A DNA stretch of 55,819 bases from Lachnospiraceae bacterium. Lineage in GTDB: Bacteria; Bacillota; Clostridia; Lachnospirales; Lachnospiraceae. The position numbers and the translations under genes are program-made. Shown here piece after piece: positions 3,122 through 29,917 of this stretch (the stretch's first letter is position 1; the number at the start of each line of letters is the position of its first letter). Location: assembly GCA_017521195.1 (NCBI GenBank), contig JAFXGP010000027.1:1-55819 (forward strand). The letters run 5' to 3'. The notes below the pieces were generated by a model that worked only from the letters and a program-made list of their open reading frames with translations, made no database searches and was not told the DNA's origin.

Positions 3122-3123
3122 TA

Positions 3124-4644: not shown

Positions 4645-4646
4645 GT

Positions 4647-5966
4647 ATGGCTAAGCATATTCAAATGCCGCCCATATATCCAATTCCATATAATTGGACT
4701 TGGGTGGAATTACGCCAATTAACAAGAATTATATCCGGATACCCATTTGATTCCAAATCATTTTCTGATCTGGCGACAGAAGGTCGTCCGCTTATTCGTA
4801 TTAGAGATGTAGTGAGGGGATATACCGAAACTTACACAACAGAAGAATGTCCAAAGCAATATATAATCCATAAAAATGATATTTTAATTGGTATGGATGG
4901 CGATTTTAATGTTGGCAAATGGCAAAACGAAGATGCGTTATTAAATCAGCGAGTTTGTTTTATTCAATCGGTGTCAGCCTTACTGTTAAATGACTATTTG
5001 TTTTATTTCTTGCCCAAACCATTGAAGCAGATTAATGATGTTACACCAAGTGTTACGGTTAAGCATCTTTCAACCAAAACCATTGAATCGATAATGATTC
5101 CGCTTCCGCCGTTAGAAGAACAACAACGCATAGTCGATCGCATAGATTTTCTTTTTGCCAAGCTCGACGAAGCAAAAGAAAAAGCGCAAGAAGTTGTAGA
5201 TAACTTTGAAACTCGCAAAGCAGTCATTCTTCATAAGGCGTTTTCAGGTGAACTGACTGCAAAATGGCGCACGGAAAATAATGTTTCCGAAAAATCCTGG
5301 ATGGCACGCAAAATAAATCAAGTATGCACTCCGAGAGCTGGATATGCTTTCGATAGCAAAAAATTTACTAATGCAGGTTATCAAATTATTCGTATGGGAA
5401 ACTTATATGGAGGCACCCTCGATCTTGCCAGAAACCCCGTTTTCACTTTGGCTACGGACATCGATGATGCTATTTTAAAACGATCTTTGGTTAATGACGG
5501 CGATATTTTAATTACCCTAACAGGAACAAAATATAAACGAGATTACGGATATGCTGTTTGTATTAGAAATCCATACAATTTGTTGGTTAACCAACGTATT
5601 TTGTGCCTATCACCAAATCTTAACGAAATAACAACCGATTATCTCCTGTATTACCTTCAATCCGATATCTTTAGGGATGTATTTTTCAGTAATGAAACGG
5701 GTGGTGTAAATCAAGGTAATGTAAGTTCAAAATTCGTTGAGAATATACAATTTGAGGTTCCTACCTATAGAGAACAAGAAGAAATTGGTTATATTCTTCG
5801 TAGCATCTTGGAAAAAGAATATCAAGCTAAAGAAATTGCCGAAGCAGTTATTGAGCAAATAGACATAATGAAAAAATCGATCCTTGCTCGTGCCTTTCGT
5901 GGTGAACTTGGTACAAATGATCCGAGCGAGGAAAGTGAAATAGAGTTGCTAAAACAAATTGATTAA
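4647..5966 (+). CDS. hsdS: Type I restriction-modification specificity subunit (HsdS)
   Basis: This subunit recognises the two halves of the target site for the HsdRMS complex. It has two target recognition domains (~12-150 and ~220-370), each followed by a helical spacer. The spacers carry the family hallmarks PLPPLEEQQRIVDRID, KAVILHKAFSGELTAKWR and, at the end of the second half, KSILARAFRGELG. The length of 439 aa is typical. The start ATG follows hsdM by two bases. No inverted or silent second hsdS copy is visible in the window, so phase variation by shuffling is not supported. The recognition sequence cannot be predicted by eye. Confidence 0.94.
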   Translation: MAKHIQMPPIYPIPYNWTWVELRQLTRIISGYPFDSKSFSDLATEGRPLIRIRDVVRGYTETYTTEECPKQYIIHKNDILIGMDGDFNVGKWQNEDALLNQRVCFIQSVSALLLNDYLFYFLPKPLKQINDVTPSVTVKHLSTKTIESIMIPLPPLEEQQRIVDRIDFLFAKLDEAKEKAQEVVDNFETRKAVILHKAFSGELTAKWRTENNVSEKSWMARKINQVCTPRAGYAFDSKKFTNAGYQIIRMGNLYGGTLDLARNPVFTLATDIDDAILKRSLVNDGDILITLTGTKYKRDYGYAVCIRNPYNLLVNQRILCLSPNLNEITTDYLLYYLQSDIFRDVFFSNETGGVNQGNVSSKFVENIQFEVPTYREQEEIGYILRSILEKEYQAKEIAEAVIEQIDIMKKSILARAFRGELGTNDPSEESEIELLKQID

Positions 5967-5985
5967 GGTAGAAAGCAGGTGCTAA

Positions 5986-6867
5986 ATGCGTAGGTTTATA
6001 TATCTTGATACAGATACACTAAACTCCTATTTGGCTCAGATTTTTGACGGTTTGTTACAGTCAAAAGAAACAGAAAAGAGTTCGAATAAGAGAAAAGAGA
6101 AACAAAATCGATTTGCTAATAATGTTGGAGGCCAAATTGCACTTAAACTTTTTGGAAAAGGAATAGATGCAAATGCGCAAGCTACCTATGAACACTTAAA
6201 AACTGTTGCTAATGATGAAATGGTTAGAGATGTTCAGACAAAAATTATGCACGATAATGCATTTGATGAATTTGCTTCATATTTAAATGAAAATAACCTT
6301 TTGGGAGAAAGTGAAATTGGCAATTTCGTTTCTGTTGAAGATGATTTCTATATTTTTGATATTGCGTTCTTTCAAAAATTATTTGCCGAACAAGGATTTA
6401 TATCAGGATTAAAAGGAATTCAGCAAAATAACATTCAAAAGGAGGCTGAACAAAGAGTTCAAGAACTGAATCGAAAACAGCAGAGAGACAAAAATTTACA
6501 GCGCCAAGTTAAAGAAATTGTCGATGCGGCAACAGCAAAAAATGAAGAAGAATTTGAGGCAGTTGAAAAATTAATTAATATGCTTGCCTCGATTATTCCA
6601 TATCCACAAATCTTGTGCATATCAAATTATGTTGTGGTTTTTAAAGAAGAATATCTAAGAGACGATTTATCTGCTGATGCTTTTAAGTATGGTGGAAAGA
6701 TTAAGGTTGTTGGCTATATAACTAACAAAGTGACAGCTCAAGCAAATACGCATGTCTCTGCATTTGCTGGGATTGGAAGATCTATCAATGAACTTTTGAA
6801 AATCTTCTTTGAAAACGTTGATGAAATGTACATTGTACATCCTGTGGCTATCTATTATGATAATTAG
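5986..6867 (+). CDS. Unknown protein between hsdS and a Septu-like pair (DUF6414-like?)
   Basis: I do not firmly recognise this 293-aa protein. Its N-terminus (RRFIYLDTDTLNSYLAQIFD) and its middle (ISNYVVVFKEEYLRDDLS) recall DUF6414-type proteins, but that is from memory and unverified. It has no signal peptide or membrane segment. A charged, probably coiled-coil stretch lies at about residues 145-195, rich in Q, K, E and R. It starts 20 bases after hsdS with AAGCAGGTG as a modest ribosome binding site, and it stops 20 bases before the ATPase start. The placement makes it part of the restriction/defence operon. It may be a sensor, adaptor or immunity component for the two downstream genes. 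Confidence 0.75.
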   Translation: MRRFIYLDTDTLNSYLAQIFDGLLQSKETEKSSNKRKEKQNRFANNVGGQIALKLFGKGIDANAQATYEHLKTVANDEMVRDVQTKIMHDNAFDEFASYLNENNLLGESEIGNFVSVEDDFYIFDIAFFQKLFAEQGFISGLKGIQQNNIQKEAEQRVQELNRKQQRDKNLQRQVKEIVDAATAKNEEEFEAVEKLINMLASIIPYPQILCISNYVVVFKEEYLRDDLSADAFKYGGKIKVVGYITNKVTAQANTHVSAFAGIGRSINELLKIFFENVDEMYIVHPVAIYYDN

Positions 6868-6887
6868 TTTTGAAGTGGGAGTCGAAA

Positions 6888-8237
6888 ATGAGAATAAAAA
6901 GAATTGCTATAGAAAAATATAAGAACCTAGTTGACTTTAAATGTGAGTTTTCAGATTCCAATATCTCTGCGTTTATTGGCAACAACGGATCAGGAAAATC
7001 AAACCTCTTGGAAGTTATTACGGAAGTATTTAGCTATGCTAAAAAGAAATGTGAGGACAAGTTGTATAGTATCATTGTTCCGCCTGAAATTTACGGATGT
7101 GAAATTGAATATGAAAAGGACGGTATATTATATACTTTAAAATATAGTCATCCCGAAGTATCCCTGCATTGTGCAGGTAAATCACTTTCCAAGCGTGAAA
7201 CAAATGCAGCGTTACCTGATAATATTCTAATTTACTATGCTGGGGAAACTATGCGCCAAGCACGTATCGTAGCTGAAACTTTTGATGAAAAATATAATTA
7301 TCGTCTCAAGAATTCTGATAATAACTCTTTTCCTGGATATAAGTATATAGACTATTATTCTGTTGAAGACCTTGGGTTATTGTTACTTACTGCTGCAGTG
7401 TACAAGGGCGATTATTATGAGAGACTTCTAAAATTACTCAGATGTACGGCAATTCTGCCCGAAATTAACATTATGCTTCAAAATCCCAAAGGGAAGGAAC
7501 AAGAAAACGCCGATACTTATTGGGGGGCAAAAGGTTTTGTTCAATCTTTTTTGGATACATTGCGCAAATCTGTTTCTTCTACTCAGAATCTTCTTGCATA
7601 TTACTCAATGTATTTTCAGGAGATTGAGCCTTTTAGAAGCTCCGCTAAAAACGAGAACGAGTTTTTGGCAAAATTAAAAGCGTTAAAGAATGCTAAATAT
7701 TTGCATTGGATTAAACTCGAATTGTGCAGAGATACTGGAGAAAAATTCACCTTTGATATGTTAAGTGAAGGGGAAAAGCAGTTAGCATTATTGTTCTTAT
7801 TAACTACTTTTACCGCTAAGGATAACTGTCTTTATATTTTTGACGAATTTGATGCATATCTGCATTTAAATTGGCAACGACTATTTTTTCAAATGATTAA
7901 TCAAACCCAAGTGAATGGTCATATTATTTTTACAACGCACTCTCCGGCATCAATTTCAAAGATTCAAAAAGAAGATGTATATAAAATGCACAATGGAATA
8001 GTCTCAAAGCCACTAAGCGATACATTTAATCGTTCTTTGGATGAGGTTATGGAAGAACAATTGGGCGTTTCATTACGCCCTCAAGAATATACCGATATCG
8101 TTGACGAGTTTAGAAAAGCTGTGATTAGTAATAAAAAGGGTATGGCGTTAGCGAAACTTGAACAACTTGAAGAAATTGTTGGTGAAAACGATCCGTTTTT
8201 TATTACTGCAAGAATTGCTTTAGAGAGGATGGACTAA
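6888..8237 (+). CDS. SMC/AAA-type ATPase, PtuA-like (Septu)
   Basis: This is a cytoplasmic ABC/SMC-fold ATPase of the AAA_15/AAA_21 type. The Walker A motif is GNNGSGKS (31-38), the ABC signature is LSEGEKQ (292-298), Walker B is YIFDEFD with D319 and E320, and the H-loop histidine is H351 in TTHSP. The span between Walker A and the signature is modest, without a long coiled coil, as in PtuA/OLD-like ATPases. The ATG at 6888 is chosen over an upstream TTG at 6870 because GTGGGAG lies correctly before it. The next gene, four bases downstream, is a CxxC/HNH-type nuclease. An ATPase followed by an HNH protein is the Septu (PtuAB) arrangement. The assignment rests on motifs and neighbourhood, not on a search. 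Confidence 0.85.
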   Translation: MRIKRIAIEKYKNLVDFKCEFSDSNISAFIGNNGSGKSNLLEVITEVFSYAKKKCEDKLYSIIVPPEIYGCEIEYEKDGILYTLKYSHPEVSLHCAGKSLSKRETNAALPDNILIYYAGETMRQARIVAETFDEKYNYRLKNSDNNSFPGYKYIDYYSVEDLGLLLLTAAVYKGDYYERLLKLLRCTAILPEINIMLQNPKGKEQENADTYWGAKGFVQSFLDTLRKSVSSTQNLLAYYSMYFQEIEPFRSSAKNENEFLAKLKALKNAKYLHWIKLELCRDTGEKFTFDMLSEGEKQLALLFLLTTFTAKDNCLYIFDEFDAYLHLNWQRLFFQMINQTQVNGHIIFTTHSPASISKIQKEDVYKMHNGIVSKPLSDTFNRSLDEVMEEQLGVSLRPQEYTDIVDEFRKAVISNKKGMALAKLEQLEEIVGENDPFFITARIALERMD

Positions 8238-8241
8238 TTGT

Positions 8242-8910
8242 ATGAAATATATTAAGAAATCTTCTCCTCCCGAGGAATTCGTATCATATAAACAACTTCT
8301 GGGTTCCACCTATGAAGATTTAGTTGTCAATCATCATGACATATATGAAATTGCAAGACTATCTTTGGCAGAAGAACAGGGCTATATTTGTTGCTATTGC
8401 GGTCAAAGAATAACAGGCTTCGAAGGAACACAAATAGAACATGTTTTTCCTAAGGGAACTGCTGCATATGAGAAAATGCAGTTGGATTATGAAACTAATC
8501 TGATTGCTTCTTGTGATGGTGGGAAATATAAAAGAAAAATTGACTCCACCATCCCCGTGGATGATTTGCATTGTGACACCAAGAAACATCAGGATCCCAT
8601 ACCGGTTACGCCATTAAACCCTGTATGCGAAGATAAATTTTTGTTTGACACCAATGGTGATATAATCGGTATTGGTGCTGATGCGGAAGCGACAATAGAA
8701 ATATTAAATTTAAAATCTCCCATACTCAAAAACATGAGAAAGGCAGCAATTGATTATTATTCACAATTTCCACCAACCGATTGGAGTGAAGAACTCGAAA
8801 AACTTAAACAAAAGAATTCAAATAACCAATTTACTGAATTTTGTTTTGTTTTGAAAAGTTACATAGAAATATTTCATAGTGCAGAATTGAGAGAACCAGC
8901 GGCAGTATAA
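8242..8910 (+). CDS. HNH endonuclease, PtuB / TIGR02646-like
   Basis: This is a likely metal-dependent nuclease and the effector partner of the upstream ATPase. The sequence ICCYCGQRI carries a CxxC pair (C50/C51 and C53). Residues IEHVFPKG supply the HNH E66-H67, followed by NLIASCDGG, HCDTKK and NPVCED. This cysteine and histidine pattern fits the small HNH family found with retrons and Septu (TIGR02646). The length of 222 aa is right for PtuB. It starts four bases after the ATPase stop, in one operon. If the Septu model holds, the ATPase holds the nuclease inactive until phage infection. All the visible active-site residues are intact. Confidence 0.85.
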   Translation: MKYIKKSSPPEEFVSYKQLLGSTYEDLVVNHHDIYEIARLSLAEEQGYICCYCGQRITGFEGTQIEHVFPKGTAAYEKMQLDYETNLIASCDGGKYKRKIDSTIPVDDLHCDTKKHQDPIPVTPLNPVCEDKFLFDTNGDIIGIGADAEATIEILNLKSPILKNMRKAAIDYYSQFPPTDWSEELEKLKQKNSNNQFTEFCFVLKSYIEIFHSAELREPAAV

Positions 8911-9885: not shown

Positions 9886-11133
9886 ATGGCAAGTGCCAGA
9901 AAAGACAAAAAAGGAAGAGCTCTTTATAAGGGCGAAAATGAACATGCAGCAGGCGGATATTATTATCAGTATATGCATCACGGAAAGAGACGGACGGTTT
10001 ATGCACCATCGCTGCCGGAACTCCGAGAGAAAGAAGAACAGATTAAGAAAGCAATGATGGATGGATTGGATAGTCATCTTGCGAAGACTAAGACGTTGAA
10101 TGATATGTTTGATGAATATATGCGACTGAAAACGGATATAAGGGAGACAACTCGTGCCAATTATACCTACATGTATAATCATTTCGTCCGGGACAGTTTT
10201 GGAAAACGAAAAGTAGGTTCTATCAAGTATACGGATGTGAAGGAATTCTATCTATCCATCCTGCAGAACGATATGATGAAAGCGTCCACATTGGAAAGCA
10301 TACATACCGTAGTCAGACCATCCATGCAGTTGGCAGTTCGTAATGATATCATTATGAAAAATCCATGCAATGATGTTATGGCAGAGATTAAACGCAGTGC
10401 TTTCTGGGAAAAGGACAAGAGACATGCTTTGACAGAGGAAGAACAGGATGCGTTTTTACAGTATCTTGCGGAGCATGAGGAAATGAGACGCTGGTATATT
10501 GTTTTTACCATGCTGATAGGAACCGGAATGCGTTTGGGAGAGTTTAGTGGATTACGATGGGATGATGTAGATTTCGAAGAGAACTACATTGACGTAAACC
10601 ATCAGGCTGTCTATTATTCCCACGGAGACAGGAAATGTAGATGGGGAATTAGTATTCCGAAGACAGAAAACGGAGTGCGTATCATACCGATGCTAGAACC
10701 TGTCAGAGAGGCGTTGCTGGAAGAATATGAGTGGCAGAAGGAACATGGTTTTAGTAAATATAAGTTGGATGGATATTCTGGATTTGTGTTTACCAACCGA
10801 TTTGATAATCTCTATAACCAAGGGTGTCTGAATAAACAGATTGAACGAATCCGTCAGGCATACAACCATGAGGAAGAGATAAACGCCAAACAAGAGAAAC
10901 GCCGTCCGTTATTGCTACCACACTTTACCAATCATCAGTTGCGCCATACCTTCTGTTCAAGACTATGTGAGCAGGATGTAAATGTGAAACTGATACAGGA
11001 AGTGATGGGACACGCAGACGTATCTACAACATTTGATATTTACGCTGAGTTTTCCGCAAAGAAGAAAAAGGAAGCGTTTAAGCTCTTGGATAATGGTAGC
11101 ATTATCAAGACGCAGAAGAAAGTAAGCCGATGA
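9886..11133 (+). CDS. int: Tyrosine recombinase / integrase (Tn916-family style)
   Basis: This site-specific recombinase integrates and excises the mobile element. The N-terminal ~55 residues form an arm-DNA-binding domain (KGRALYKGENEHAAGGYYY), followed by a SAM-like core-binding domain (~60-165) and a catalytic domain. Visible catalytic residues are R216 (TGMRLGE), H350 and R353 (HQLRH), H376 (MGHAD) and the nucleophile Y386. The length of 415 aa is typical. CGAGGTGATACT supplies the ribosome binding site. The upstream excisionase is broken, but this gene is intact. It is the last gene before chromosomal housekeeping genes, so the element's right end should lie just downstream. Confidence 0.92.
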   Translation: MASARKDKKGRALYKGENEHAAGGYYYQYMHHGKRRTVYAPSLPELREKEEQIKKAMMDGLDSHLAKTKTLNDMFDEYMRLKTDIRETTRANYTYMYNHFVRDSFGKRKVGSIKYTDVKEFYLSILQNDMMKASTLESIHTVVRPSMQLAVRNDIIMKNPCNDVMAEIKRSAFWEKDKRHALTEEEQDAFLQYLAEHEEMRRWYIVFTMLIGTGMRLGEFSGLRWDDVDFEENYIDVNHQAVYYSHGDRKCRWGISIPKTENGVRIIPMLEPVREALLEEYEWQKEHGFSKYKLDGYSGFVFTNRFDNLYNQGCLNKQIERIRQAYNHEEEINAKQEKRRPLLLPHFTNHQLRHTFCSRLCEQDVNVKLIQEVMGHADVSTTFDIYAEFSAKKKKEAFKLLDNGSIIKTQKKVSR

Positions 11134-20320: not shown

Positions 20321-20349
20321 TTGCGGTCCGAACCGATAAATGTTAAAAT
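20321..20349 (+). promoter_or_regulatory. Sigma-A-type promoter for the flavin/Rnf-like operon
   Basis: TTGCGG (20321-20326) and TAAAAT (20344-20349) are spaced by 17 bases, ~30 bases before the first gene. No other promoter of similar quality was noticed before the terminator at 27680. Confidence 0.6.
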
Positions 20350-20379
20350 TTTGTCGATTTATTATTATAAGGAGGCAGC

Positions 20380-20775
20380 ATGGGTAAAACAAAGGGGATG
20401 AGACTGAGATTTTGTATAGGCGATGTCCTAGTAATAGGCTTTGTAGTAATGCTGGCAATTCTTATAGGTGTAGTGTTTTGGATAAAAACAGGAACAGAAG
20501 AAGGGAATCTTGTAGTGGTTTACCGTGAAGGTGAAAAAATACGGGAACTTTCCTTAGATAAGAATACGGAGATTTTTATTGAAAACAGTTACACAAATAA
20601 ATTAGTAGTAAAAGATAAAAAAGTTGCCATTGTGGAATCCGATTGTCCGGGAATGGATTGTGTACACAGCGGATGGATCAGTGGTAAAGGGCGCAGTCTT
20701 GTGTGTTTGCCCAATCGTGTGGAAATTCGAATCGAGGGGGAAGTAGATTCAGAAGTGGATTTTATCGTGAGGTAA
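20380..20775 (+). CDS. NusG domain II-containing protein (EetA-like)
   Basis: This small protein has one N-terminal membrane segment (~13-35) and an extracytoplasmic NusG-II-type beta domain. The conserved pattern SDCPGMDCVHSGWIS followed by SLVCLPNRVEIRIEG is the family hallmark, with three cysteines. Proteins of this type pair with Gx-transporter proteins in Gram-positive flavin and quinone redox loci; as I recall, EetA of the Listeria extracellular electron transfer locus is one. The ribosome binding site is AAGGAGGCAGC. The next gene starts three bases after its stop. Its exact molecular role is unknown. Confidence 0.85.
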   Translation: MGKTKGMRLRFCIGDVLVIGFVVMLAILIGVVFWIKTGTEEGNLVVVYREGEKIRELSLDKNTEIFIENSYTNKLVVKDKKVAIVESDCPGMDCVHSGWISGKGRSLVCLPNRVEIRIEGEVDSEVDFIVR

Positions 20776-20778
20776 GTT

Positions 20779-21300
20779 ATGAAGAAGAATAAAGTGAATC
20801 AAATGACTTTGTGTGCGATATTAATATCCATGGCGTTGGTGTTGTCCTATATGGAACGTTTTATTCCGTTACAGATGTTTATTCCGTTACCGGGAATAAA
20901 ACTGGGGCTGGCAAATGTAGTAACATTAATGGCCTTGTTCTTTTTAGGAACAAAGAGTGCTTTTACTATTTTAATTATAAGATGTGTTTTGGGCGCTGTT
21001 TTTGGCGGAGGAATTTCCGGTCTGGCATTTTCTTTGACAGGTGGGATTTTGGCCATGAGTGTGATGTGCATCTTTAAACAAAACAGAAGAGTTTCGGTAT
21101 TTGGAGTCAGCATCTTGGGAGCTGCATTTCATAATATCGGACAAATTCTTGTAGCCATTTTTATGATGGGATCTGTGTACGTAATAGGTTATTTGCCGTA
21201 CTTATTATTAGTATCTGTGTTTACCGGGATGGCAACCGGCAGTATTTGCGCGGGGGTATTCCGTATTTTAAAAACAAATACGCAGATAATACAAAATTAA
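20779..21300 (+). CDS. Gx transporter family membrane protein (EetB-like)
   Basis: This 173-aa polytopic membrane protein belongs to the family once annotated as heptaprenyl diphosphate synthase component I and now as Gx transporter (ECF-S-like fold). About five hydrophobic segments are visible. GIKLGLANVVTLMALFFLG and GAVFGGGISGLAFSLTGG are characteristic. By family it probably moves a small hydrophobic or flavin/quinone-related molecule; the substrate is not established. It is coupled to the NusG-II gene upstream and lies 23 bases before the flavin lipoprotein gene, as in EetA/EetB-type loci. Confidence 0.87.
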   Translation: MKKNKVNQMTLCAILISMALVLSYMERFIPLQMFIPLPGIKLGLANVVTLMALFFLGTKSAFTILIIRCVLGAVFGGGISGLAFSLTGGILAMSVMCIFKQNRRVSVFGVSILGAAFHNIGQILVAIFMMGSVYVIGYLPYLLLVSVFTGMATGSICAGVFRILKTNTQIIQN

Positions 21301-21323
21301 AGGGAAATGGGAGGAAAGAGACA

Positions 21324-23312
21324 ATGAAAAAATTACTTGCTTTTATTTTAACAATGGCAATGACTGCAAGTATGCTTGTAGGATGTACAGGAACAATTGT
21401 AGTGATAGAAAATCCTACAGAGAATGTAGAAAACGTGGAAACTGAAATGGTGGAAGTTACAGAAGGTGCTGTAAAAACAGGTCTTTCCGTGATTGCAAAT
21501 CTGTCAGGGGAAGCAGCAAGTGCTGAAGCAAACGGAACTGTAACAACAGATATTTCTTTAGTTGCGGTTACTGTAAATGACAATGGTGTAATTGAATCCT
21601 GTGCCATTGATGCAGTACAGGGAAAAGTTGCATTTGATAGTGAAGGTCAGCTTGCGGCAGAGGCAGGAGAAATCTTAAGCAAAAACGAATTAGGCGATAA
21701 CTATGGAATGAGAGCTTTCTCAGGAATCGGAAAAGAGTGGAATGAACAGGCTGCATATATTGCAGATTATGCAGAAGGTAAAACAGTAGAAGAATTAAAA
21801 ACAAATGCTATAGATGAATCAGGTATGGTAAAAGATGCAGACTTGGCTTCCGGCGCGACTATTTATATGGGCTCTTTTATTTGGGCAATTGAAGATGCAG
21901 TTAACAATGCAAAACATTGTGGTGCCCAGAGCGGAGATCAGTTGGTATTAACAGCAATCTCTTCTTCTGAAGGAAGTGCAGCAGCAACAGCAGAAGCAGA
22001 AGGAAGTGCATCTGTAACATCTAACATTATTGCTATGACAACAAATGGCGAAGTAATCACAAGCTGTATTATTGATGCAGTTCAGTCAAAAGCAGGATTT
22101 GCAACAGACGGAACTTTAGTAGGAGAAGTAGCAGGCAGTGTATTATCCAAAGCACAGCTTGGCGAAGATTATGGTTTAAAAGCTTACTCAGGAGTAGGTA
22201 AGGAATGGGATGAACAGACATTAGCATTCTGCGAATATGTAACAGGTAAAACTGTAGAAGAAGCTACAAGTATTGCTTTAACAGAAACTACAGCACCTGC
22301 AGATGCTGACCTTGCAGCAAGTGTATCTATCGCAGTAGGTGATTTTGTAAACTTAGTGAAAAAAGCCGGTGAAAAAACAGTAGGCGGAGATGTGGCAAGT
22401 GAAGCCGGAGCAGTAAAAACAGGTTTTGCAGTTTCTGCTACCATCGGTGCAGAAAGTGCCGGTGAAGAAGATGGAACAACAACAACAGATGTTTCTGTTG
22501 TAGCAGTAACAGTTACAGAAGACGGAGTAATTGAATCTTGTAAAATCGATGCTGTACAGGGAAAAGTTTCCTTCACAGCAGAAGGAAAAATCAGTTCTGA
22601 AGCAGGTGCTGTTTTAAGTAAAAAAGAATTGGGCGATGACTATGGAATGAGAGCTTTCTCAGGAATCGGAAAAGAATGGAATGAACAAGTAGAAGCTATT
22701 GAAGCTTATGCAATAGGAAAAACGGTAGAAGAATTAAAATCCAAAGCTATTGATGAATCCGGTGTGGTAGCAGATGCAGACCTTGCCAGCGGAGCAACTA
22801 TTTATATGGGCTCTTTCATTTGGGCAATTGAAGATGCAGTAAACAATGCACAGAATCTTGGGGCAAATTCCGGGGATGAATTGATCTTGGTTACTAATTC
22901 CAAAGCATCCGGAACAGATGCTTCTGCAGATGCAGAAGGAACTACACAGGTAGATTCTAACGTAGCAGTATTTACTATGAAAGATGGTGTGATTACAAGT
23001 TGTATCATTGATGCTATTCAGGCAAAAGCTGCTTTTGATGCCAAAGGTGTAGTAGCAGAAATTGCAGATGCAACAGTTTTAAGTAAAGCACAGCTTGGTG
23101 AAAAATATGGATTGAAAGCATTCTCCGGTGTCGGAAAAGAATGGAATGAGCAGACAACTGCATTCTGTGAATATATCACAGGAAAAACGGTAGAAGAAGT
23201 AATGGGCATTGCCTTAACAGAAACTACAGCACCGGCAGAAGAAGATCTTGCAGCAAGTGTATCTATTGCTGTAGGAGACTTTATGGGACTTGTTGAAAAA
23301 GCAGCTAAGTAG
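21324..23312 (+). CDS. Lipoprotein with four tandem FMN-domain-like repeats
   Basis: This is a surface lipoprotein: a hydrophobic signal ends in SMLVGC with lipid-accepting C21. The ATG at 21324, with GGGAGGAAAG before it, is preferred over an in-frame start at 21246. The mature protein has four ~155-aa repeats arranged A-B-A'-B', with an exact 313-codon period between the halves. A and A' each end in DLASGAT (T179 and T492), matching the [ST]GA[ST] site where ApbE attaches FMN. B and B' have AASVS there and have lost the acceptor. The next gene is ApbE. It probably carries two covalent FMNs and relays electrons outside the membrane, like PplA. The very regular repeats mean the flavin role is inferred, not proven. 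Confidence 0.8.
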   Translation: MKKLLAFILTMAMTASMLVGCTGTIVVIENPTENVENVETEMVEVTEGAVKTGLSVIANLSGEAASAEANGTVTTDISLVAVTVNDNGVIESCAIDAVQGKVAFDSEGQLAAEAGEILSKNELGDNYGMRAFSGIGKEWNEQAAYIADYAEGKTVEELKTNAIDESGMVKDADLASGATIYMGSFIWAIEDAVNNAKHCGAQSGDQLVLTAISSSEGSAAATAEAEGSASVTSNIIAMTTNGEVITSCIIDAVQSKAGFATDGTLVGEVAGSVLSKAQLGEDYGLKAYSGVGKEWDEQTLAFCEYVTGKTVEEATSIALTETTAPADADLAASVSIAVGDFVNLVKKAGEKTVGGDVASEAGAVKTGFAVSATIGAESAGEEDGTTTTDVSVVAVTVTEDGVIESCKIDAVQGKVSFTAEGKISSEAGAVLSKKELGDDYGMRAFSGIGKEWNEQVEAIEAYAIGKTVEELKSKAIDESGVVADADLASGATIYMGSFIWAIEDAVNNAQNLGANSGDELILVTNSKASGTDASADAEGTTQVDSNVAVFTMKDGVITSCIIDAIQAKAAFDAKGVVAEIADATVLSKAQLGEKYGLKAFSGVGKEWNEQTTAFCEYITGKTVEEVMGIALTETTAPAEEDLAASVSIAVGDFMGLVEKAAK

Positions 23313-23373
23313 GGAATTTCAAATTAGTAAATATGTGGTCGGAAAAAATAAGACTACGATATGAGGAAAAGAT

Positions 23374-24411
23374 ATGTTTCGAAAATGGCTGTTCCTTGTT
23401 TTGGCAACCTTGCTTTTAACAGGATGCGGTAATTCACCTGAAATAAAAGAAACTGAGGTAGTAAAGAAACAGTATCAGGCATCTTTCCTGAATTTGTTTG
23501 ATACTGTAACTACCATTTTGGGGTATGCCGAAACAGAGGAGGAATTTGAGAAAATTACAGATGATATCTATACCAAACTGGAAAAATATCATAAGCTGTT
23601 TGACATTTATAGGGAATATGAAATAAATAACATTAAAACCATAAATGATCAGGCGGGAATTGCTCCGGTAGAAGTAGATGAAGAGATTATAGAACTTCTG
23701 TTGGATTGTAAAGAATACTATTATATGACCGGTGGTAAAGTTAATGTGGCCATGGGTAGCGTACTGAATCTTTGGCACGAAGCCAGAGAGGATGGAGTTG
23801 ACAATCCCCTGGAATCATATTTACCGGATGAGGCAGCTTTAAAGGAAGCAGCCTTGCATTGCGATATAGAGGATGTGGTGATTGATGAAGAGGCATCCAC
23901 GGTTTATATTGCAGATCCCAAACTTCGTCTGGATGTGGGAGCAGTTGCCAAAGGATGGGCCACGGAAAAGGTATGCCGGGAAATACCGGAAGGACTTTTG
24001 GTCAGTGTAGGTGGTAATGTCCGGGCAACGGGACCAAAGCCGGGAGATATTCCATGGGTAGTAGGAATAGAATCTCCCTGGAAAGAAAATTCAGACTATG
24101 TTCATACGTTGTATGTAAATCGGGAGTGTGTAGTTACCAGTGGTGATTATCAAAGATATTATACGGTAGATGGTGAAACTTATCATCATCTCATAGATCC
24201 GGAGACTTTGTATCCGGGTAAAAAGTGGAAGGCAGTCAGTGTGGTGTGTGAAGATTCCGGTCTGGCAGATGCTTTATCCACAGCACTTTTTCTCCTCTCA
24301 AAAGAAGAAGGGGAAAAAATAGCAAAACAACATGATGCCTATGTGATGTGGATCGCTTCTGAAGAAGAAATCTATTATAGCGATGGCTTTGAAACGATAA
24401 TTAAGAGGTGA
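23374..24411 (+). CDS. apbE: FAD:protein FMN transferase (ApbE), lipoprotein
   Basis: This enzyme attaches FMN from FAD to a threonine in target flavoproteins on the outer face of the membrane. The signal LLLTGC places the lipidated Cys at residue 18. Family motifs are GGKVNVAMGSVLNLW, LDVGAVAKGWATEK, VSVGGNVRATG, HHLIDPETLYPGK and the metal-binding DALSTALFLL. The length of 345 aa is typical. It lies between a likely substrate (the repeat lipoprotein) and RnfC-D-G, where RnfD and RnfG are also flavinylated. The gene stops six bases before rnfC. Confidence 0.95.
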   Translation: MFRKWLFLVLATLLLTGCGNSPEIKETEVVKKQYQASFLNLFDTVTTILGYAETEEEFEKITDDIYTKLEKYHKLFDIYREYEINNIKTINDQAGIAPVEVDEEIIELLLDCKEYYYMTGGKVNVAMGSVLNLWHEAREDGVDNPLESYLPDEAALKEAALHCDIEDVVIDEEASTVYIADPKLRLDVGAVAKGWATEKVCREIPEGLLVSVGGNVRATGPKPGDIPWVVGIESPWKENSDYVHTLYVNRECVVTSGDYQRYYTVDGETYHHLIDPETLYPGKKWKAVSVVCEDSGLADALSTALFLLSKEEGEKIAKQHDAYVMWIASEEEIYYSDGFETIIKR

Positions 24412-24417
24412 GAGGAA

Positions 24418-25725
24418 ATGAAACGTTTATTCTTTGGTGGAGTACATCCGGCAGATAAAAAAGAATTGTCTGCTAATGTAGAACTGCAAATGAAAAAAGA
24501 ACCAAAGCAAGTAACTATCCCTATGTCCCAGCATATTGGGGCTCCTTGTGAACCTTTGGTAGCTGTAGGAGATACGGTTAAAAAAGGACAGAAAATCGGG
24601 GATGGCAAAGGTCTTTGTGTACCGGTACATGCTTCTGTTTCCGGTAAAGTAGTTGCAATTGAAAAAAGACGTCATGTAAACGGACAGGATGTTCTTTCTG
24701 TTGTGATTGAAAATGATTATAAAGATACTGAAGATACATCTATGACAGCTTATGAAGATTATTCTAAATTAAGTGATGATAAGATTATTGATATTATCCG
24801 TGAAGCAGGAATTGTTGGTATGGGTGGTGCTACTTTCGCTACTAATGTGAAAGCAGCAAGCAGCATGGAAAAAGTAAAAGTTTTAATTGCCAATGCCTGT
24901 GAATGTGAACCATATATTACATCGGATGATATGCTTCTTCGTATGTATCCGGAACGTGTATTGGAAGGTATGAGAATTATCTGTCAGGTTTTAAATCCTG
25001 AGAGAGTAGTTCTTGCGATTGAAGAAAACAAAAAAGCCGCTATTGAAGTTTTGAAAAAAGAGTTGGCTAACGATAAAAAAATTGAATTGGTAGTGCTTCC
25101 GACCAGATATCCTCAGGGAGCAGAAAAACAATTGGTACAAGCTGTAACAGGTTTTGAAATTAAAGGTGGAGAACTTCCGAGAAGTGTAGGAGCAGCGGTA
25201 TTTAACGTAGCTACTTTTGCTTACACATACGGGGCAGTGTGCTTTGGACGTCCGGTAACCAGACGTATTGTAACTGTTACCGGTGAAGCTGTAAACAATC
25301 CGGGAAATTATTGGTTAAGAATCGGAACTCCTTTTGAAGAGGCAGTAGCCCAGGCCGGTGGTTTAAAAGATAATGCATGGAAAGTAATTGCCGGAGGACC
25401 TATGATGGGTGTGGCACAGGAAGATTTAAGTGCCTGCACTATTAAAGGAACTAACTGTATTCTTTGCTTATCTGAAGAACAGAATGGTGAAGCAAAAGAA
25501 GAAAATCCATGTATTCGTTGCGGAGCTTGTGTGAAGGCATGTCCTATGAATTTACAGCCATTGTATTTACATGCATATGGTAAAAAAGCAGATACAAAAG
25601 AATTAAAACGATTAAATGTAATGGATTGTATTGAATGCGGATGTTGTTCTTATACATGTCCTGCTAAATTGCGTTTGGTAGAAACCATCCGTGAAGGAAA
25701 AGTACGTGTAAAGGAGGAAATGTAA
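24418..25725 (+). CDS. rnfC: Rnf/Nqr-type electron transport subunit C
   Basis: RnfC is the peripheral NADH-binding subunit of Rnf, holding FMN and two [4Fe-4S] clusters. An N-terminal biotinyl-lipoyl-like segment (VPVHASVSGKVVAIEKR) is followed by the NADH/FMN site REAGIVGMGGATF, a SLBB-like region and two ferredoxin motifs, CIRCGACVKACP and CIECGCCSYTCP. The 435 aa match the usual core length without C-terminal extensions. A strong GAGGTGAGAGGAA ribosome binding site precedes ATG 24418. All cofactor ligands appear intact, so the cytoplasmic NADH-facing module should work. Confidence 0.95.
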   Translation: MKRLFFGGVHPADKKELSANVELQMKKEPKQVTIPMSQHIGAPCEPLVAVGDTVKKGQKIGDGKGLCVPVHASVSGKVVAIEKRRHVNGQDVLSVVIENDYKDTEDTSMTAYEDYSKLSDDKIIDIIREAGIVGMGGATFATNVKAASSMEKVKVLIANACECEPYITSDDMLLRMYPERVLEGMRIICQVLNPERVVLAIEENKKAAIEVLKKELANDKKIELVVLPTRYPQGAEKQLVQAVTGFEIKGGELPRSVGAAVFNVATFAYTYGAVCFGRPVTRRIVTVTGEAVNNPGNYWLRIGTPFEEAVAQAGGLKDNAWKVIAGGPMMGVAQEDLSACTIKGTNCILCLSEEQNGEAKEENPCIRCGACVKACPMNLQPLYLHAYGKKADTKELKRLNVMDCIECGCCSYTCPAKLRLVETIREGKVRVKEEM

Positions 25726-25727
25726 TC

Positions 25728-26687
25728 ATGAAATTTGAAGTAACATCTTCCCCTCATATTAGAAGTAAAAAGAATACACAGCATATTATGCTGGATGTAA
25801 TTCTTGCATTACTCCCTGCTCTTTTGGTAGGTGTAGTAAGATTTGGAGTACAGGCTTTAGTGCTTACTTTAGTAAGTATTGCGGCAGCAGTAGCAGCAGA
25901 ATGGATTTGCGGTATGGTAATTTACCATCGCAATACAGTAAAAGATTTGTCTGCGGTAGTAACCGGTTTATTACTTGCCATGACACTTCCGTCCACAGTG
26001 CCTTACTGGGTGGCAGCTATCGGCAGTGCGTTTGCTATTATTCTTGTAAAAGGTTTTGGCGGTGGTTTAGGTAAGAATGTATTTAACCCTGCTTTAGCAG
26101 CAAGAGCGCTTTTAATGTTAATCTGGCCGGTATATCTGGTTCGTTTCCCGAAAGTAGGGACTACAGGAAATGCGGTAGATATGGTAGCAGGAGCTACACC
26201 TTTACATCATATGCAGATGCCTGCATTACCGGAAGAAAGCCTTATGGATATGTTCCTTGGTAATATTGGAGGCTGTATCGGTGAAGTGTGTTCATTAGCA
26301 TTATTGGCAGGCGGAGTATATTTAATTTGGAAAGGTATTATTTCCGTAAGAATTCCGGCTGCATACTTAGGAACTATTGCAGTTTTAACACTGGTATTCT
26401 CCAAAGGTGACAATGCTTTTGCATGGATGATGTACAGTGTTCTTGGCGGTGGAGTTATGTTGGCTGCATTCTTTATGGCAACGGATTATACAACATCTCC
26501 TGTAACACCTAAGGGACAGGTAATTTACGGAATCGGTTGTGGAGTTTTAACAGTAGTATTCCGTTATTTCGGTCTTTTCCCGGAAGGTGTAACTTATGCA
26601 ATTCTTTTAATGAATGCCTGTGTTTGGGTAATTGATACTTATACAGCACCACGTAGATTTGGAACAAAGAAAGGAGAAACAGCATAA
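25728..26687 (+). CDS. rnfD: Rnf-type electron transport subunit D (flavinylated membrane subunit)
   Basis: RnfD is an integral membrane subunit that normally carries covalent FMN. This 319-aa protein has about nine hydrophobic segments and the motif AGATPL, with candidate acceptor Thr157, the equivalent of the SGAT site of NqrB/RnfD. KGFGGGLGKNVFNPALAARALL is not written in full here but its core GGGLGKNVFNPALA is the family signature. It starts three bases after rnfC and overlaps rnfG by one base (TAATG), so translation is coupled. Confidence 0.94.
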   Translation: MKFEVTSSPHIRSKKNTQHIMLDVILALLPALLVGVVRFGVQALVLTLVSIAAAVAAEWICGMVIYHRNTVKDLSAVVTGLLLAMTLPSTVPYWVAAIGSAFAIILVKGFGGGLGKNVFNPALAARALLMLIWPVYLVRFPKVGTTGNAVDMVAGATPLHHMQMPALPEESLMDMFLGNIGGCIGEVCSLALLAGGVYLIWKGIISVRIPAAYLGTIAVLTLVFSKGDNAFAWMMYSVLGGGVMLAAFFMATDYTTSPVTPKGQVIYGIGCGVLTVVFRYFGLFPEGVTYAILLMNACVWVIDTYTAPRRFGTKKGETA

Positions 26688-27226
26688 TGAAAAATAAATA
26701 TGTAACTCCTATTTTAGCAATTGTTATTGTTGCAGTTGTTCTTTTTGGCGGAAAAGCTGCTCTTTCAGGCACTGCCGAAAAAAACGTGGAAATTGCAAGA
26801 AATAAAATGATGACAGCATTATTGCCGGGTAGTACAACTTTTGCACCGGAAGAATTTGATGCAGCCACCAATTCAGCAATTAAGTCCGTATATAAGGGTG
26901 AAAACGGATATGTAATCGAAAGTACAGCTTACGGATATAACGGTGATATCACACTTATGGTAGGTGTAAGCAATGAAGGTCAGGTGACCGGTCTGGTAGT
27001 TGAAAATATGCAGGAAACCAGAGGACTAGGAGCAGATGCATTAACAGATGTTCCGTTTCTGGCACAGTTTTTGTTAACCGGCGGTGATGCAGAAGTAGGT
27101 AGTAATGTTGATGCCCTTACGGGAGCTACCGTTTCTTCCAAAGCGGTAACGAAAGCAGTGAATTCAGCAGTTGCTTATGTAACAGGGGCAGATACATCAT
27201 CTTCTGCTACAGAATGGGGAGGTTGA
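26687..27226 (+). CDS. rnfG: Rnf-type electron transport subunit G (FMN-binding)
   Basis: RnfG is anchored by one N-terminal membrane segment (~5-27), with an FMN-binding domain outside the membrane. The flavinylation motif DALTGATVSS has acceptor Thr148, a good ApbE substrate. MQETRGLGADA matches the family's ETPGLG-type loop. The length of 179 aa is normal. It shares one base with rnfD. In full Rnf operons rnfE, rnfA and rnfB follow; here only a single unrelated small membrane protein does. Confidence 0.94.
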   Translation: MKNKYVTPILAIVIVAVVLFGGKAALSGTAEKNVEIARNKMMTALLPGSTTFAPEEFDAATNSAIKSVYKGENGYVIESTAYGYNGDITLMVGVSNEGQVTGLVVENMQETRGLGADALTDVPFLAQFLLTGGDAEVGSNVDALTGATVSSKAVTKAVNSAVAYVTGADTSSSATEWGG

Positions 27227-27230
27227 TAAT

Positions 27231-27659
27231 ATGAAGAAAAATACAATGTTGGTAAATACCTTACTTGCTGTAGTGTTGGGAGCAGGATTAATGGTTGGGA
27301 TTGTTTGGAGAACCTTTATGCCTTACGTAGTACTTCCTGAATTGGATGTGAATGCCTGTGTAGCAATTACTTTGATTGCTCTTGTTCTGGAATATTATAT
27401 TTCAGGGAAACAGGAAAGAAACTGGGCGGTTCAGACTATTTTAGGTACTGTTACCTTTGGCGGGCTGTCCCTTGCAGCAGGATTTCCTTATGCAGGAGTT
27501 AAAACATTTATTGTGGGTGCAGTTGTATTTGCGGCTACTACTTTCCTTTTTGATTCCATGGTATGTAGATTGGAAGTGACTACAGACAAAAAGTGTGCAG
27601 TGATTCCAAGTGCATTTGTTCTTTTCCTGGCATGCCAGTGTTTTATGGGAATGTTCTAA
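27231..27659 (+). CDS. Unknown small membrane protein replacing RnfE/A/B
   Basis: I do not recognise this 142-aa protein. It has about five hydrophobic segments (roughly 8-26, 40-58, 66-84, 88-108 and 122-141). It has five cysteines (43, 112, 122, 135, 137), several near membrane borders. RnfA and RnfE hold a membrane [2Fe-2S] cluster using cysteines, but their LGxCP-like signatures are absent here, so homology is not claimed. The start is four bases after rnfG, and an operon terminator follows. It could be a structural partner, a redox relay or a quinone/flavin-handling subunit. Confidence 0.8.
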   Translation: MKKNTMLVNTLLAVVLGAGLMVGIVWRTFMPYVVLPELDVNACVAITLIALVLEYYISGKQERNWAVQTILGTVTFGGLSLAAGFPYAGVKTFIVGAVVFAATTFLFDSMVCRLEVTTDKKCAVIPSAFVLFLACQCFMGMF

Positions 27660-27679
27660 AGTAAGTTAAAAATTTAAAC

Positions 27680-27740
27680 AGACTTCTGTTATGCAGGAAA
27701 TTAGTTAATAAGACAATTTCTGCTGACAGAAGTCTTTTTT
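27680..27740 (+). terminator. Terminator closing the flavin/Rnf-like operon
   Basis: AGACTTCTGT (27680-27689) pairs perfectly with ACAGAAGTCT (27726-27735), with a 36-base loop and a run of Ts. Confidence 0.85.
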
Positions 27741-27877
27741 ATGAAATATTTGGTAAATATACGAAGATAGTATATAGATTTTATAGAATAAAAGTGTTAA
27801 AATAGAACCAGACATGACAAAAACTTTTCGACATCAAAGGATAAGTAGAAGAGAAAAAGGATTGGGGGAAGAATGTT

Positions 27878-29917
27878 ATGGGGAAAAAAGAAAAAATAAA
27901 GGCCGTGGTGAAAAAAAGTACCAATAAGAACGGGATTGGAAAACAGATTCAGAAACAAATCGGAATCAGTGTTTCTGTAGTGTTAGCAGTAATTGCGGTT
28001 GTAACCCTTTTGCAGATGAACAATATGGGAACTACATCCAATAATACAGAGCTGAAGTTAGAATCTGAGGCTGCAGCACTGCAGTTGGAACAGTTTTTTG
28101 CACCTTTTGAAAGAATGGTAGAGCAGCAGGCTGTTAATAATGAAATAAAAGCTATTATGAATTCTACCTATGCAGGGGATGATATAGGTAAAAATGTCAG
28201 ATACAGTAATATGCTGGCTAACTTAAAGGAAGTAAAAGCTTTAGATGACAGTAACATTCTTGCAACCTGGGTTGCGGATATTGATGCCAGTACCGCTGCT
28301 ATGTCAGACGGATATATAACAGATCCGGGATTTGATGTAACTACCCGTCCTTGGTTTGAATGTACAAAGACAGGAGAAACTGTGCTGACAGAACCTTATG
28401 TGGATGATGCAACCGGTCAGATGGTATTAAGTGTTGCAACACCTGTAAATGTTATGGGAAAAACGGTAGGTATTTCCGGTATGGATGTTTCTCTGGAGTC
28501 CATGGTTGGTCTCATGGGTAATTATAAAATCGGTGATAACGGTTATGTTATGCTTTTGACCGGAGACGGAGATTTTATCTATCATCCAAACGATGAATTG
28601 GTGACTACTAATATCAAAGATTTAAACATCTCAGAAAATGTACTTACAGCAATTGAGAATAAAAGCGCGGAATTGTTAAAGTATAAAGTGGATGGTGATG
28701 GTAAATTTGGATATCTTACACCGATTGGAGATACCGGTTTTGTAGCGATTAGCTGTATTACAACAGGAGAATATCATTCAGCTGTTATCGCAGCATTGTT
28801 GATGTTACTACTTGTGTTTGTAGTAGGATTTATCTTTGTTGTTATTACAGTAAGAAGAATTTCAGGCAAAATTGTAAGCCCGTTGATTGAATTAAATGAA
28901 ACAGCAGAACAGTTGGCAGCAGGTAATTTAGATGTAACTATTGATGTATCATCTCAGGATGAAGTCGGTGATTTGGGACGTTCTATTGAAAAGACTGTAA
29001 ACAGATTAAAAGAATACATAGATTATATCGATGAAATTTCCGAAGTGCTTGCGGCTATGGCAAATGGAAAATTGGCAATCAATTTGAAGTATGCCTATGT
29101 TGGAGAATTCCAGAAGGTTAAAGAGGCATTGATTCATATTTCAAGCTCTATGACAGATGTTATGACTAACATTGCGGAAACTGCAAATCAGGTATCTGTG
29201 GGTTCTGATGATTTGGCTAAGGCGGCTCAGGGATTGGCAGAAGGTTCTGAATCACAGGCTGCAGCAGTAGAAGAATTATTGGCTACAGCAACAACTGTGG
29301 CTGAGCAGGTAGAAGAAAATAAAAACGATTCAGAAAAATCTGCACTGCATACACAGGAAGTTACTGCAATGATGGAAGAAAGCCAGCAACAGATGGATAT
29401 GATGCGTAAAGCTATGGATAATATTTATGAAGCATCTCAGAAAGTAGTTGGTATCATTAAAACTATCGAAGATATTGCAGAACAGACTAATCTATTATCC
29501 TTAAATGCATCTATTGAAGCTGCAAGAGCAGGAGAAGCAGGAAGAGGATTTGCGGTTGTAGCAGGAGAAATCGGAAATCTTGCCAATGAAAGTGGTCGTG
29601 CAGTAAATACAACCCGTGAGTTAATCGGTGTATCTTTGGATGAAATCGAAAAAGGTAATGCACTGGCAAAAGAGGTAGTGGAATCCTTAAGTCAGGCAGT
29701 TGCAAAAGTAGAAGAAGTTAATGAAATGATTCAGAAATCTGCAGAAAGTGCGGAAGTACAGATGCAGAGTGTAAATCAGATTCGTGATGGAGTAGAAGAA
29801 ATGTCCCAGAGTATTCAGGACAATTCAGCTATGGCAGAAGAAACTTCTGCAACCAGTGAAGAACTGGCAGCACAGGCTGTAACTTTGAACGAATTGGTTC
29901 AGATGTTTGAAATCTAA
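27878..29917 (+). CDS. Methyl-accepting chemotaxis protein (dCache sensor)
   Basis: This transmembrane chemoreceptor signals to CheA to steer flagella. It has a first membrane segment (~27-48), a double-Cache-like extracellular domain (~50-300, including [20 protein letters not shown] and a second copy of the fold with [16 protein letters not shown]), a second membrane segment (~305-327), a HAMP domain with an extra HAMP-like linker, and a methyl-accepting signalling domain whose hairpin tip reads [20 protein letters not shown]. The 679 aa are normal. GGGGGAAG precedes ATG 27878. No sigma-28 promoter was found upstream. It is monocistronic, with its own terminator. Confidence 0.94.

Follow-up and report, generated by a model that had tools for sequence, protein, structure and literature searches.

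A half-RNF operon as a candidate NADH-driven electron exporter in a Lachnospiraceae bacterium

What is the function of an operon that encodes RnfC, RnfD and RnfG, one half of an RNF complex, beside a lipoprotein and an ApbE-type flavin transferase, and where would its electrons go? The question is raised by a locus within a 55,819-nucleotide stretch of contig JAFXGP010000027.1 (C8 in our numbering, in which contigs, genomes and loci are labelled C, G and L) of the Lachnospiraceae assembly GCA_017521195.1. This whole stretch is referred to here as the window, and the assembly comprises 133 contigs with 81.7 % completeness and 4.7 % contamination. The reading preferred here, to which we give a probability of roughly 70 %, is that the operon encodes a half-RNF electron exporter, in which the NADH arm of RNF would replace the NADH dehydrogenase Ndh2 together with quinone and deliver electrons to the surface lipoprotein.

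Eight plus-strand genes were read from the open reading frames (ORFs) between 20380 and 27659, with intergenic gaps of at most 61 bases. The features are as follows, with protein lengths in amino acids (aa).

20380..20775, plus strand: eetA-like gene, NusG domain II protein, 131 aa (PF07009, NusG_II, E 2.8e-26)
20779..21300, plus strand: eetB-like gene, 173 aa, probable energy-coupling factor (ECF) S-component for export of flavin adenine dinucleotide (FAD), feeding ApbE (PF07456, Hpre_diP_synt_I, E 1.6e-38; role according to PMC9973259)
21324..23312, plus strand: lipoprotein gene, start ATG at 21324, four repeated domains of about 150–160 aa in two pairs
21849..21860, plus strand: SGAT, possible flavin acceptor in lipoprotein repeat 1 (read from the sequence; acceptor Ser/Thr in 40/40 aligned rows)
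22788..22799, plus strand: SGAT, possible flavin acceptor in lipoprotein repeat 3 (read from the sequence)
23374..24411, plus strand: apbE, lipoprotein FAD:protein flavin mononucleotide (FMN) transferase, 345 aa (PF02424, E 6.4e-62)
24418..25725, plus strand: rnfC, 435 aa, NADH/FMN and two [4Fe-4S] sites (TIGR01945, E 6.3e-153)
25728..26687, plus strand: rnfD, 319 aa, acceptor Thr codon at 26196-26198 in AGATPL (TIGR01946, E 9.1e-94; NQR2_RnfD_RnfE, E 9e-113)
26687..27226, plus strand: rnfG, 179 aa, TGAT at 27119-27130 (FMN_bind, E 1.3e-18)
27231..27659, plus strand: gene 8, small membrane protein, 142 aa, likely a cluster-less remote RnfA relative (hhalign and an RnfA hidden Markov model, HMM)
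27680..27735, plus strand: intrinsic terminator hairpin (27676-27745 folds at −25.8 kcal/mol, z −5.44)

Pfam and NCBIfam assignments agreed with the gene content given in a preliminary description of this DNA (NusG-II, Gx-transporter, lipoprotein, ApbE, RnfC, RnfD, RnfG and a small membrane protein), and the motifs it named were found in the sequence, namely SGAT twice in the lipoprotein, GATPL in RnfD and TGATVSS in RnfG. By Pfam, RnfC was composed of Complex1_51K, RnfC_N, SLBB and 4Fe-4S domains; by NCBIfam, rnfC and rnfD exceeded their cut-offs and rnfG matched at 3.5e-18, below its cut-off. At E 0.001 no Pfam family was obtained for the lipoprotein or for gene 8 of the window, and neither Rfam nor tRNA scanning produced a match in the window. 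The locus had also been described as one promoter-to-terminator unit; the terminator was borne out by its folding, but the promoter was not, with no plus-strand sigma-70-like site listed between 20238 and 20380.

The cofactor residues of the three Rnf proteins were compared with those of relatives and of full RNF sets from the genomes described below. The eight cluster cysteines of RnfC were present in 28/28 half-RNF rows and in 22/22 full-RNF rows. For RnfD, the acceptor Thr was kept in each of the 28 rows with letters and the Gly before Ala-Thr in just five of them. This missing Gly lies within the known range, because the solved RnfD of Clostridium tetanomorphum, the sequence of which reads TTATPL, bears covalent FMN (PMC12174285). 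RnfG read [ST]GAT in 27 of 28 rows, the exception being AGAT in L097. Judged by sequence, the RNF acceptor residues for covalent FMN are therefore present in both RnfD and RnfG of the half set. RnfC matched the solved RnfC 9eri_C at 1.6e-119, RnfD matched the solved chain 7zc6_D at 7.2e-85, and the candidate gate motif of RnfD was alike in half and full sets (pattern matched in 27 and 22 rows, respectively). In whole RNF, the electron path comprises RnfG-FMN, RnfD-FMN, RnfD-riboflavin, RnfC and NAD+, with RnfA, RnfE and RnfB not needed (PMC12174285). On this solved path RnfC, RnfD and RnfG therefore constitute one unbroken arm, and the absent subunits are exactly those of the ferredoxin arm. 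The C-terminal tail of the half-RNF RnfG (VTGADxxSxATxWGG) was also conserved, and most of the 28 rows contain a further GAT-like motif there.

The mechanism that we propose would begin with RnfC, which would oxidise cytoplasmic NADH through its FMN and two [4Fe-4S] clusters. Electrons would cross the membrane via the riboflavin and covalent FMN of RnfD to the covalent FMN of RnfG, and from there would pass to the multi-domain surface lipoprotein and on to extracellular acceptors. EetB would export FAD, from which ApbE would attach flavin to RnfD, to RnfG and probably to the lipoprotein as well. RnfB and the [2Fe-2S] pair of RnfA/E, which make up the ferredoxin arm, would have been lost, with an RnfA-like protein lacking the cluster cysteines staying behind, probably as a scaffold for RnfD and RnfG. 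The half-RNF would thus stand in place of the Ndh2 and demethylmenaquinone of Listeria-type flavin extracellular electron transfer (EET), and the chain would need no quinone made by the cell. The outward direction, the contact between RnfG and the lipoprotein, the lipoprotein flavin, the terminal acceptor and the role of gene 8 are the parts of this scheme that we infer.

To place the locus among its relatives, a three-row RnfG alignment was used to search the genome collection, yielding 27 loci. With the window and L052 (G343) these represent 29 genomes, L078 and L095 being counted as genomes of L019 and L020. The order lipoprotein, ApbE, RnfC, RnfD, RnfG, gene 8 was found in 29/29 genomes as far as contigs reach (L052 ends in RnfD, L085 begins in RnfD, L090 begins just upstream of ApbE and L073 begins inside the lipoprotein). 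EetA and EetB were located upstream of the block in 10/29 loci, some of the others being cut by contig ends, and no RnfE or RnfA matches were listed in the 27 loci. With gene 8 as the query, matches were obtained in 4/348 family genomes, namely its own, those of L019 and L020, which had the same eight-gene order, and one chance match. Recurrence of the same gene order is far beyond chance, and the possibility that the locus is an assembly fragment of a whole RNF was rejected since the order is kept throughout. The 27 loci were from uncultured Lachnospiraceae, Oscillospiraceae or unplaced Clostridia/Bacillota; a ruminant was named in 21 of the 27 record titles, and a hindgut section in 20 of those 21. 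Two points count against the preferred reading: all titled relatives are uncultured metagenome-assembled genomes (MAGs) or assemblies, and in L083 an RnfB-like sequence, matching weakly at 18 bits, lies some genes farther downstream on the opposite strand.

The preliminary description had also proposed a whole-genome search for rnfA, rnfB and rnfE. RnfA/E (PF02508) matches in the window genome were confined to contig C127, the only place at which TIGR01944 (RnfB) was above its cut-off, and there formed an rnfC-D-G-E-A-B run at 3310-8348. Both FMN_bind matches of the genome were RnfG. An rnfABE set is therefore encoded elsewhere, which the preliminary description had held to speak against its proposal if that set were clearly the partner of the window's RnfCDG; it is not the obvious partner, because the C127 operon holds its own rnfC, rnfD and rnfG. 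The C127 rnfG (L012, 5571-6089) was frame-shifted right after its SGAT, probably through an assembly slip, with the remaining operon intact.

The same issue can be posed for all 29 genomes, in which RnfCDG of the block might be spare subunits that join the RnfA/E/B of the genome; the product would be another ferredoxin:NAD+ complex, with an RnfG that also supplies the lipoprotein. By PF02508, RnfA/E were present elsewhere in 21/29 genomes, and lipoprotein genes beside RNF operons in L066, L067, L070 and L071 suggest that whole RNF may also have a branch leading to the lipoprotein. However, these other rnf operons have their own rnfC, rnfD and rnfG, with all six genes together in 17 of the 21; for the remaining four, the RnfC of G365 has an internal stop and the runs of G360, G369 and G370 are cut at or near contig ends. 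Since the complete rnf operons have their own genes, the half set is an additional one with a dedicated role. Furthermore, eight genomes (G343, G350, G354, G357, G361, G363, G371 and G372) had no RnfA/E at all, although incomplete assemblies may explain part of these, and in the block the place where rnfE and rnfA normally follow is taken by a cluster-less RnfA-like protein. Half-RNF RnfC and RnfD also grouped together, separate from each of the 22 full-RNF rows, and the spare-subunit explanation is on balance quite unlikely.

The tree underlying this last point, a quick one, was built from RnfC plus RnfD with 49 rows (27 half, 22 full), leaving out L052 and L085 of the half sets and L151, L154 and L159 of the full sets as their genes were short or missing. 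All half rows fell on one side of a branch with a Shimodaira–Hasegawa-like approximate likelihood ratio test (SH-aLRT) value of 100. Their nearest kin were eight full RNF sets, and the window genome's own full RNF was placed elsewhere. The full rows came from half-RNF genomes and four lipoprotein loci only, and the root was set at the midpoint. The history that the tree suggests, in which the half set arose once, through duplication and loss, within an Oscillospiraceae-like lineage and was later transferred to Lachnospiraceae, could therefore change with wider sampling.

Other partial RNF sets were encountered in the same genomes. G357 and G371, the half-RNF sets of which formed the earliest split in the tree, each carried a divergent RnfC-RnfD pair (L134 3531-5580 and L138 434-2565) with no other rnf gene detected adjacent, possibly another minimal RNF derivative. 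A divergent RnfC-RnfD-RnfE-RnfA run in G365 (L136 5468-8798), in which no RnfB or RnfG was detected with the reference set, is a different partial RNF. An extra RnfC with a long N-terminal extension (655-722-aa frame) in 14/29 genomes was judged unrelated, as no RnfD or RnfG was adjacent in the five loci read; among the extra-RnfC loci L128-L132 (G350, G349, G030, G372 and G363), a 292-aa ORF was nearby in 3/5. The extended RnfC resembles the RnfC2 linked to methylene-tetrahydrofolate reductase (MetV/MetF) of acetogens.

The identity of gene 8 was addressed by profile comparison. In hhalign, its C-terminal 56 columns aligned to the RnfA C-terminus with a probability of 79, E 1.5e-5 and a score of 39.2, against E 0.11 and 0.17 for reversed profiles and E 0.037 or worse for EetB, EetA, RnfD and RnfG. 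None of 400 class-preserving column shuffles of gene 8 equalled the real match, the best reaching a score of 28.2 (E 1.1e-3). When the 2,327 ORFs of 160 loci were scanned with an RnfA HMM, 67 matches fell below E 1, comprising 28 RnfA, 28 RnfE and 11 gene 8 proteins; the last were at E 0.0026 to 0.83, with the first other protein at E 1.1. PF02508 itself matched 2/28 gene 8 members (best E 0.0042). The two RnfA cysteines, kept in 23/24 RnfA, had no conserved counterpart in gene 8, where the commonest cysteine column reached 18/28. The kinship is weakened by two results: the best of 200 block shuffles, in which parts of the matching stretch survive, had a score of 35.3 (E 6.9e-5), and the reverse search with a gene 8 HMM was not clean, its best other matches being an unlabelled ORF of L139 (1.5e-5), RnfA (9.4e-4) and RnfD (0.001). 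The structure model had a predicted local distance difference test (pLDDT) value of 68.8 and gave no fold match with Foldseek (best E 2.7), and a class-wide gene 8 profile search found 2/391 genomes, its own and one weak match (6.2e-4). Taken together, gene 8 is likely a cut-down RnfA relative unable to hold a [2Fe-2S] cluster.

Two other identities were rejected, namely an RnfE relative (hhalign E 0.15, with the RnfE HMM placing gene 8 at E 3.3 or worse, behind unrelated ORFs) and a counterpart of the Ndh2 C-terminal domain (E 0.064 by hhalign). A gene 8 match in G115 (L018/L021) had no rnf neighbours and was set aside as a chance match. The earlier statement that the locus has no rnfA, rnfB or rnfE holds in that no PF02508 or TIGR01944 match was found on the window's contig; as gene 8 is likely an RnfA relative without the Fe-S cysteines, 'no rnfA' has to be read as no cluster-holding rnfA.

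For the surface end of the proposed chain, the lipoprotein family was searched with a three-row profile in 348 family genomes, of which 23 had a match at E 1e-30 or better and 41 at 1e-5; 17 of the 18 weaker matches cover the N-terminus only. Most relatives consist of one domain pair of about 350-420 aa, compared to the two pairs of the window protein, in which repeats 1 and 3 read SGAT and repeats 2 and 4 read AASVS. An alignment of 40 rows chosen by length (23 half-RNF, 17 other) left out L072, L073, L086, L097, L066 and L068, in which the protein was overlong or truncated; the contigs of L085 and L090 contain no lipoprotein gene. The lipobox Cys was present in at least 90 % of the 40 rows. 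The acceptor Ser/Thr was kept in both domains of all 40, at a spacing of 156 residues (179 and 335) as against 122 in Listeria PplA (Thr143, Thr265; PMC8906456). The lipoprotein adjoins ApbE in every half-RNF locus showing both.

The lipoprotein profile matched the solved chain 2kzx at E 2.1e-8, with the acceptor laid on DAISGAT of 2kzx, and the matched stretch of 2kzx is itself FMN_bind at 1.9e-5, above the curated cut-off; the window lipoprotein alone matched 2kzx at 4.9e-4. Domains of ~160 aa in two or four copies fit the FMN-bind2 type (PMC10979944), and the domain pair was modelled at pLDDT 92 with a predicted template modelling (pTM) score of 0.85. By these comparisons the lipoprotein is a divergent FMN_bind relative, and it may well carry covalent flavin. 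Several results pull in the other direction. The direct profile match between the lipoprotein and RnfG was not significant (E 0.039), the FMN_bind link running only through 2kzx; Foldseek of the pair model found no PDB fold at E 0.001 (best 0.036); FMN_bind was absent among the 25 of 72 families listed for 40 lipoprotein members; and outside the window and L072 the motif was mostly [ST]x[AV][TS] rather than [ST]GA[TS]. In a model protein, changes of G to A or of A to V are reported to give a flavinylation of about 50 % (PMC12052999). The multi-FMN lipoprotein of the preliminary description is not supported as written, since its kinship with FMN_bind runs through 2kzx only and most relatives lack the SGAT, even though they retain the acceptor Ser/Thr.

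The gene neighbourhoods of this lipoprotein provide the comparison with Ndh2. The 22 annotated loci comprised three with the half-RNF (L019, L020 and L052), nine with another gene set (L053-L057, L059, L061, L062 and L068), the four named above with a complete or near-complete RNF adjacent (L066, L067, L070 and L071), which count against the preferred reading, and six in which none of the three settings was clear. In the RNF operons of L067, L070 and L071, near the lipoprotein and ApbE, RnfG was 390-413 aa, about double the usual size. The nine loci of the second setting have ORFs of 662-716 aa and 319-361 aa upstream and usually a third of ~300 aa. The three ORFs beside the lipoprotein in L057 were Pyr_redox_2, polyprenyl_synt and UbiA by Pfam, the content of the Listeria EET locus (PMC8906456). 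The long ORF was an Ndh2 homologue in seven genomes, 61-75 % identical besides the query's own; a motif rule picked an Ndh2-like ORF in 8/9 loci, that of L068 being assigned by the motif rule alone and that of L056 by size and place alone.

Ndh2 of these loci was found at E 1e-20 in 0/29 half-RNF genomes as against 7/7 controls, which were however picked for carrying the Ndh2 locus and include the query's own genome. UbiA was found in 3/29 half-RNF genomes (G301, G343 and G356), with none in the window genome (G000), as against 7/7 of these chosen controls, a comparison confined to the two sets and not set against other gut Clostridia. By Pfam, none of the eight genes at the locus encoded Ndh2, prenyl synthase or UbiA, polyprenyl synthase being looked for at the locus only. 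The substitution of RnfCDG for Ndh2 put forward in the preliminary description is supported by this comparison, as the lipoprotein family occurs in some other Lachnospiraceae with Ndh2, prenyl synthase and UbiA. Given UbiA in just 3/29 genomes, the chain can hardly depend on the cell's own quinone; these counts do not tie the loss of UbiA to the chain itself. The more specific form of the electron exporter would be a quinone-free EET chain, in which RNF is cut at its extracytosolic midpoint and its NADH arm, held by a cluster-less RnfA-derived scaffold, takes over from Ndh2 and demethylmenaquinone as a one-way exporter to a flavin-EET lipoprotein; we lean towards this form by slightly better than even odds.

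EetA and EetB had initially been taken as EET markers, a role that was not supported. EetB acts as the S-component that exports FAD for ApbE, its gene is found most often together with Rnf and EET systems, with Rnf in 572 Clostridia genomes, and deletion of eetA gave no EET phenotype (PMC9973259). In our analysis, the pair marks flavinylation rather than EET.

The direction of flow was considered separately. Electrons could run inwards, the lipoprotein taking them from an extracellular donor and the half-RNF reducing NAD+, the potential of which is −320 mV. A flavin at about −184 mV (SaFMN3, PMC10339131) cannot reduce NAD+ without energy input, and PMC8238504 defines Ndh2, the enzyme found in the parallel loci, as an NADH dehydrogenase. 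Inward flow would nonetheless agree with the forward mode of whole RNF, in which RnfD and RnfC pass electrons to NAD+ (PMC12174285), but overall it appears very improbable. Alternatively, the exporter might serve a dedicated secreted reductase of the fumarate- or urocanate-reductase-like kind encoded elsewhere, the lipoprotein being a carrier between the two. Electron transport chains are known to supply flavinylated fumarate and urocanate reductases on the extracytosolic side (PMC8238504); no such reductase was found by Pfam among the eight genes of the locus, the genomes not having been searched for one, and we consider this arrangement rather unlikely.

Compared with known systems, the half set shares with RNF (RnfABCDGE) the cofactor residues of RnfC, RnfD and RnfG and the gene order C-D-G, but differs in lacking RnfB and the RnfA/E [2Fe-2S] pair, in having a cluster-less RnfA-like protein instead and in being joined to the lipoprotein, ApbE and, in 10/29 loci, EetA/EetB. 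The Listeria-type EET locus (Ndh2, DmkA/B, PplA, FmnA/B, EetA and EetB) has ApbE/FmnB, EetA and EetB in common with it, and the window lipoprotein's family takes the place of PplA in Lachnospiraceae Ndh2 loci. In contrast, the half-RNF locus lacks Ndh2, prenyl synthase and UbiA, and RnfCDG would be its NADH-side electron source. The NQR/RNF-like one-way systems (Meheust 2021, PMC8238504; PMC10979944) likewise have a single path out of a split NQR/RNF and an RnfG-like acceptor. As described in those sources, they have an NqrB/RnfD-NqrF fusion (PF00175), no RnfD flavin Thr and a distribution primarily in Actinobacteria and the candidate phyla radiation (CPR), whereas the half-RNF has a separate RnfC and a flavinylatable RnfD of 319 aa with PF03116 alone and no NqrF fusion. 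RNF with a multi-flavinylated RnfG (PMC8238504) also combines an RNF core with extra extracytosolic flavin domains for alternative acceptors, but is defined by RnfB, and the half set has no ferredoxin arm.

In PMC8238504 a system is classed as RNF if it has RnfB, as NQR/RNF-like if it has the RnfD-NqrF fusion and as EET if it has a membrane NADH dehydrogenase (Ndh2). The half-RNF locus falls under none of these rules and stands between RNF and flavin EET. Among the open-access literature matches listed, which did not cover supplements, there was no description of a half-RNF of this kind, in line with the earlier suggestion that the combination may be undescribed. If the electron-exporter reading is correct, it would provide Gram-positive gut anaerobes with a route to move NADH electrons outwards without Ndh2 or their own quinone. 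Considering the ruminant (21/27 titles) and hindgut (20) sources, the chain may matter for how reductant is disposed of in the guts of livestock. It may also bear on the ion transport of RNF, which is disputed, with models placing it in RnfD or in RnfA-E (PMC12174285); a complex with RnfD but without the RnfA/E cluster would be a natural experiment on these two options.

Two observations concern the surroundings of the locus. Read by eye from their opening letters, the stretches at 2-8910 and 9886-11133 of the window encode large proteins resembling a type I restriction-modification/defence cluster and then an integrase-like protein. A methyl-accepting chemotaxis protein follows the terminator at 27878-29917 and has the same position in the nearest relative, L072, at 81 % identity.

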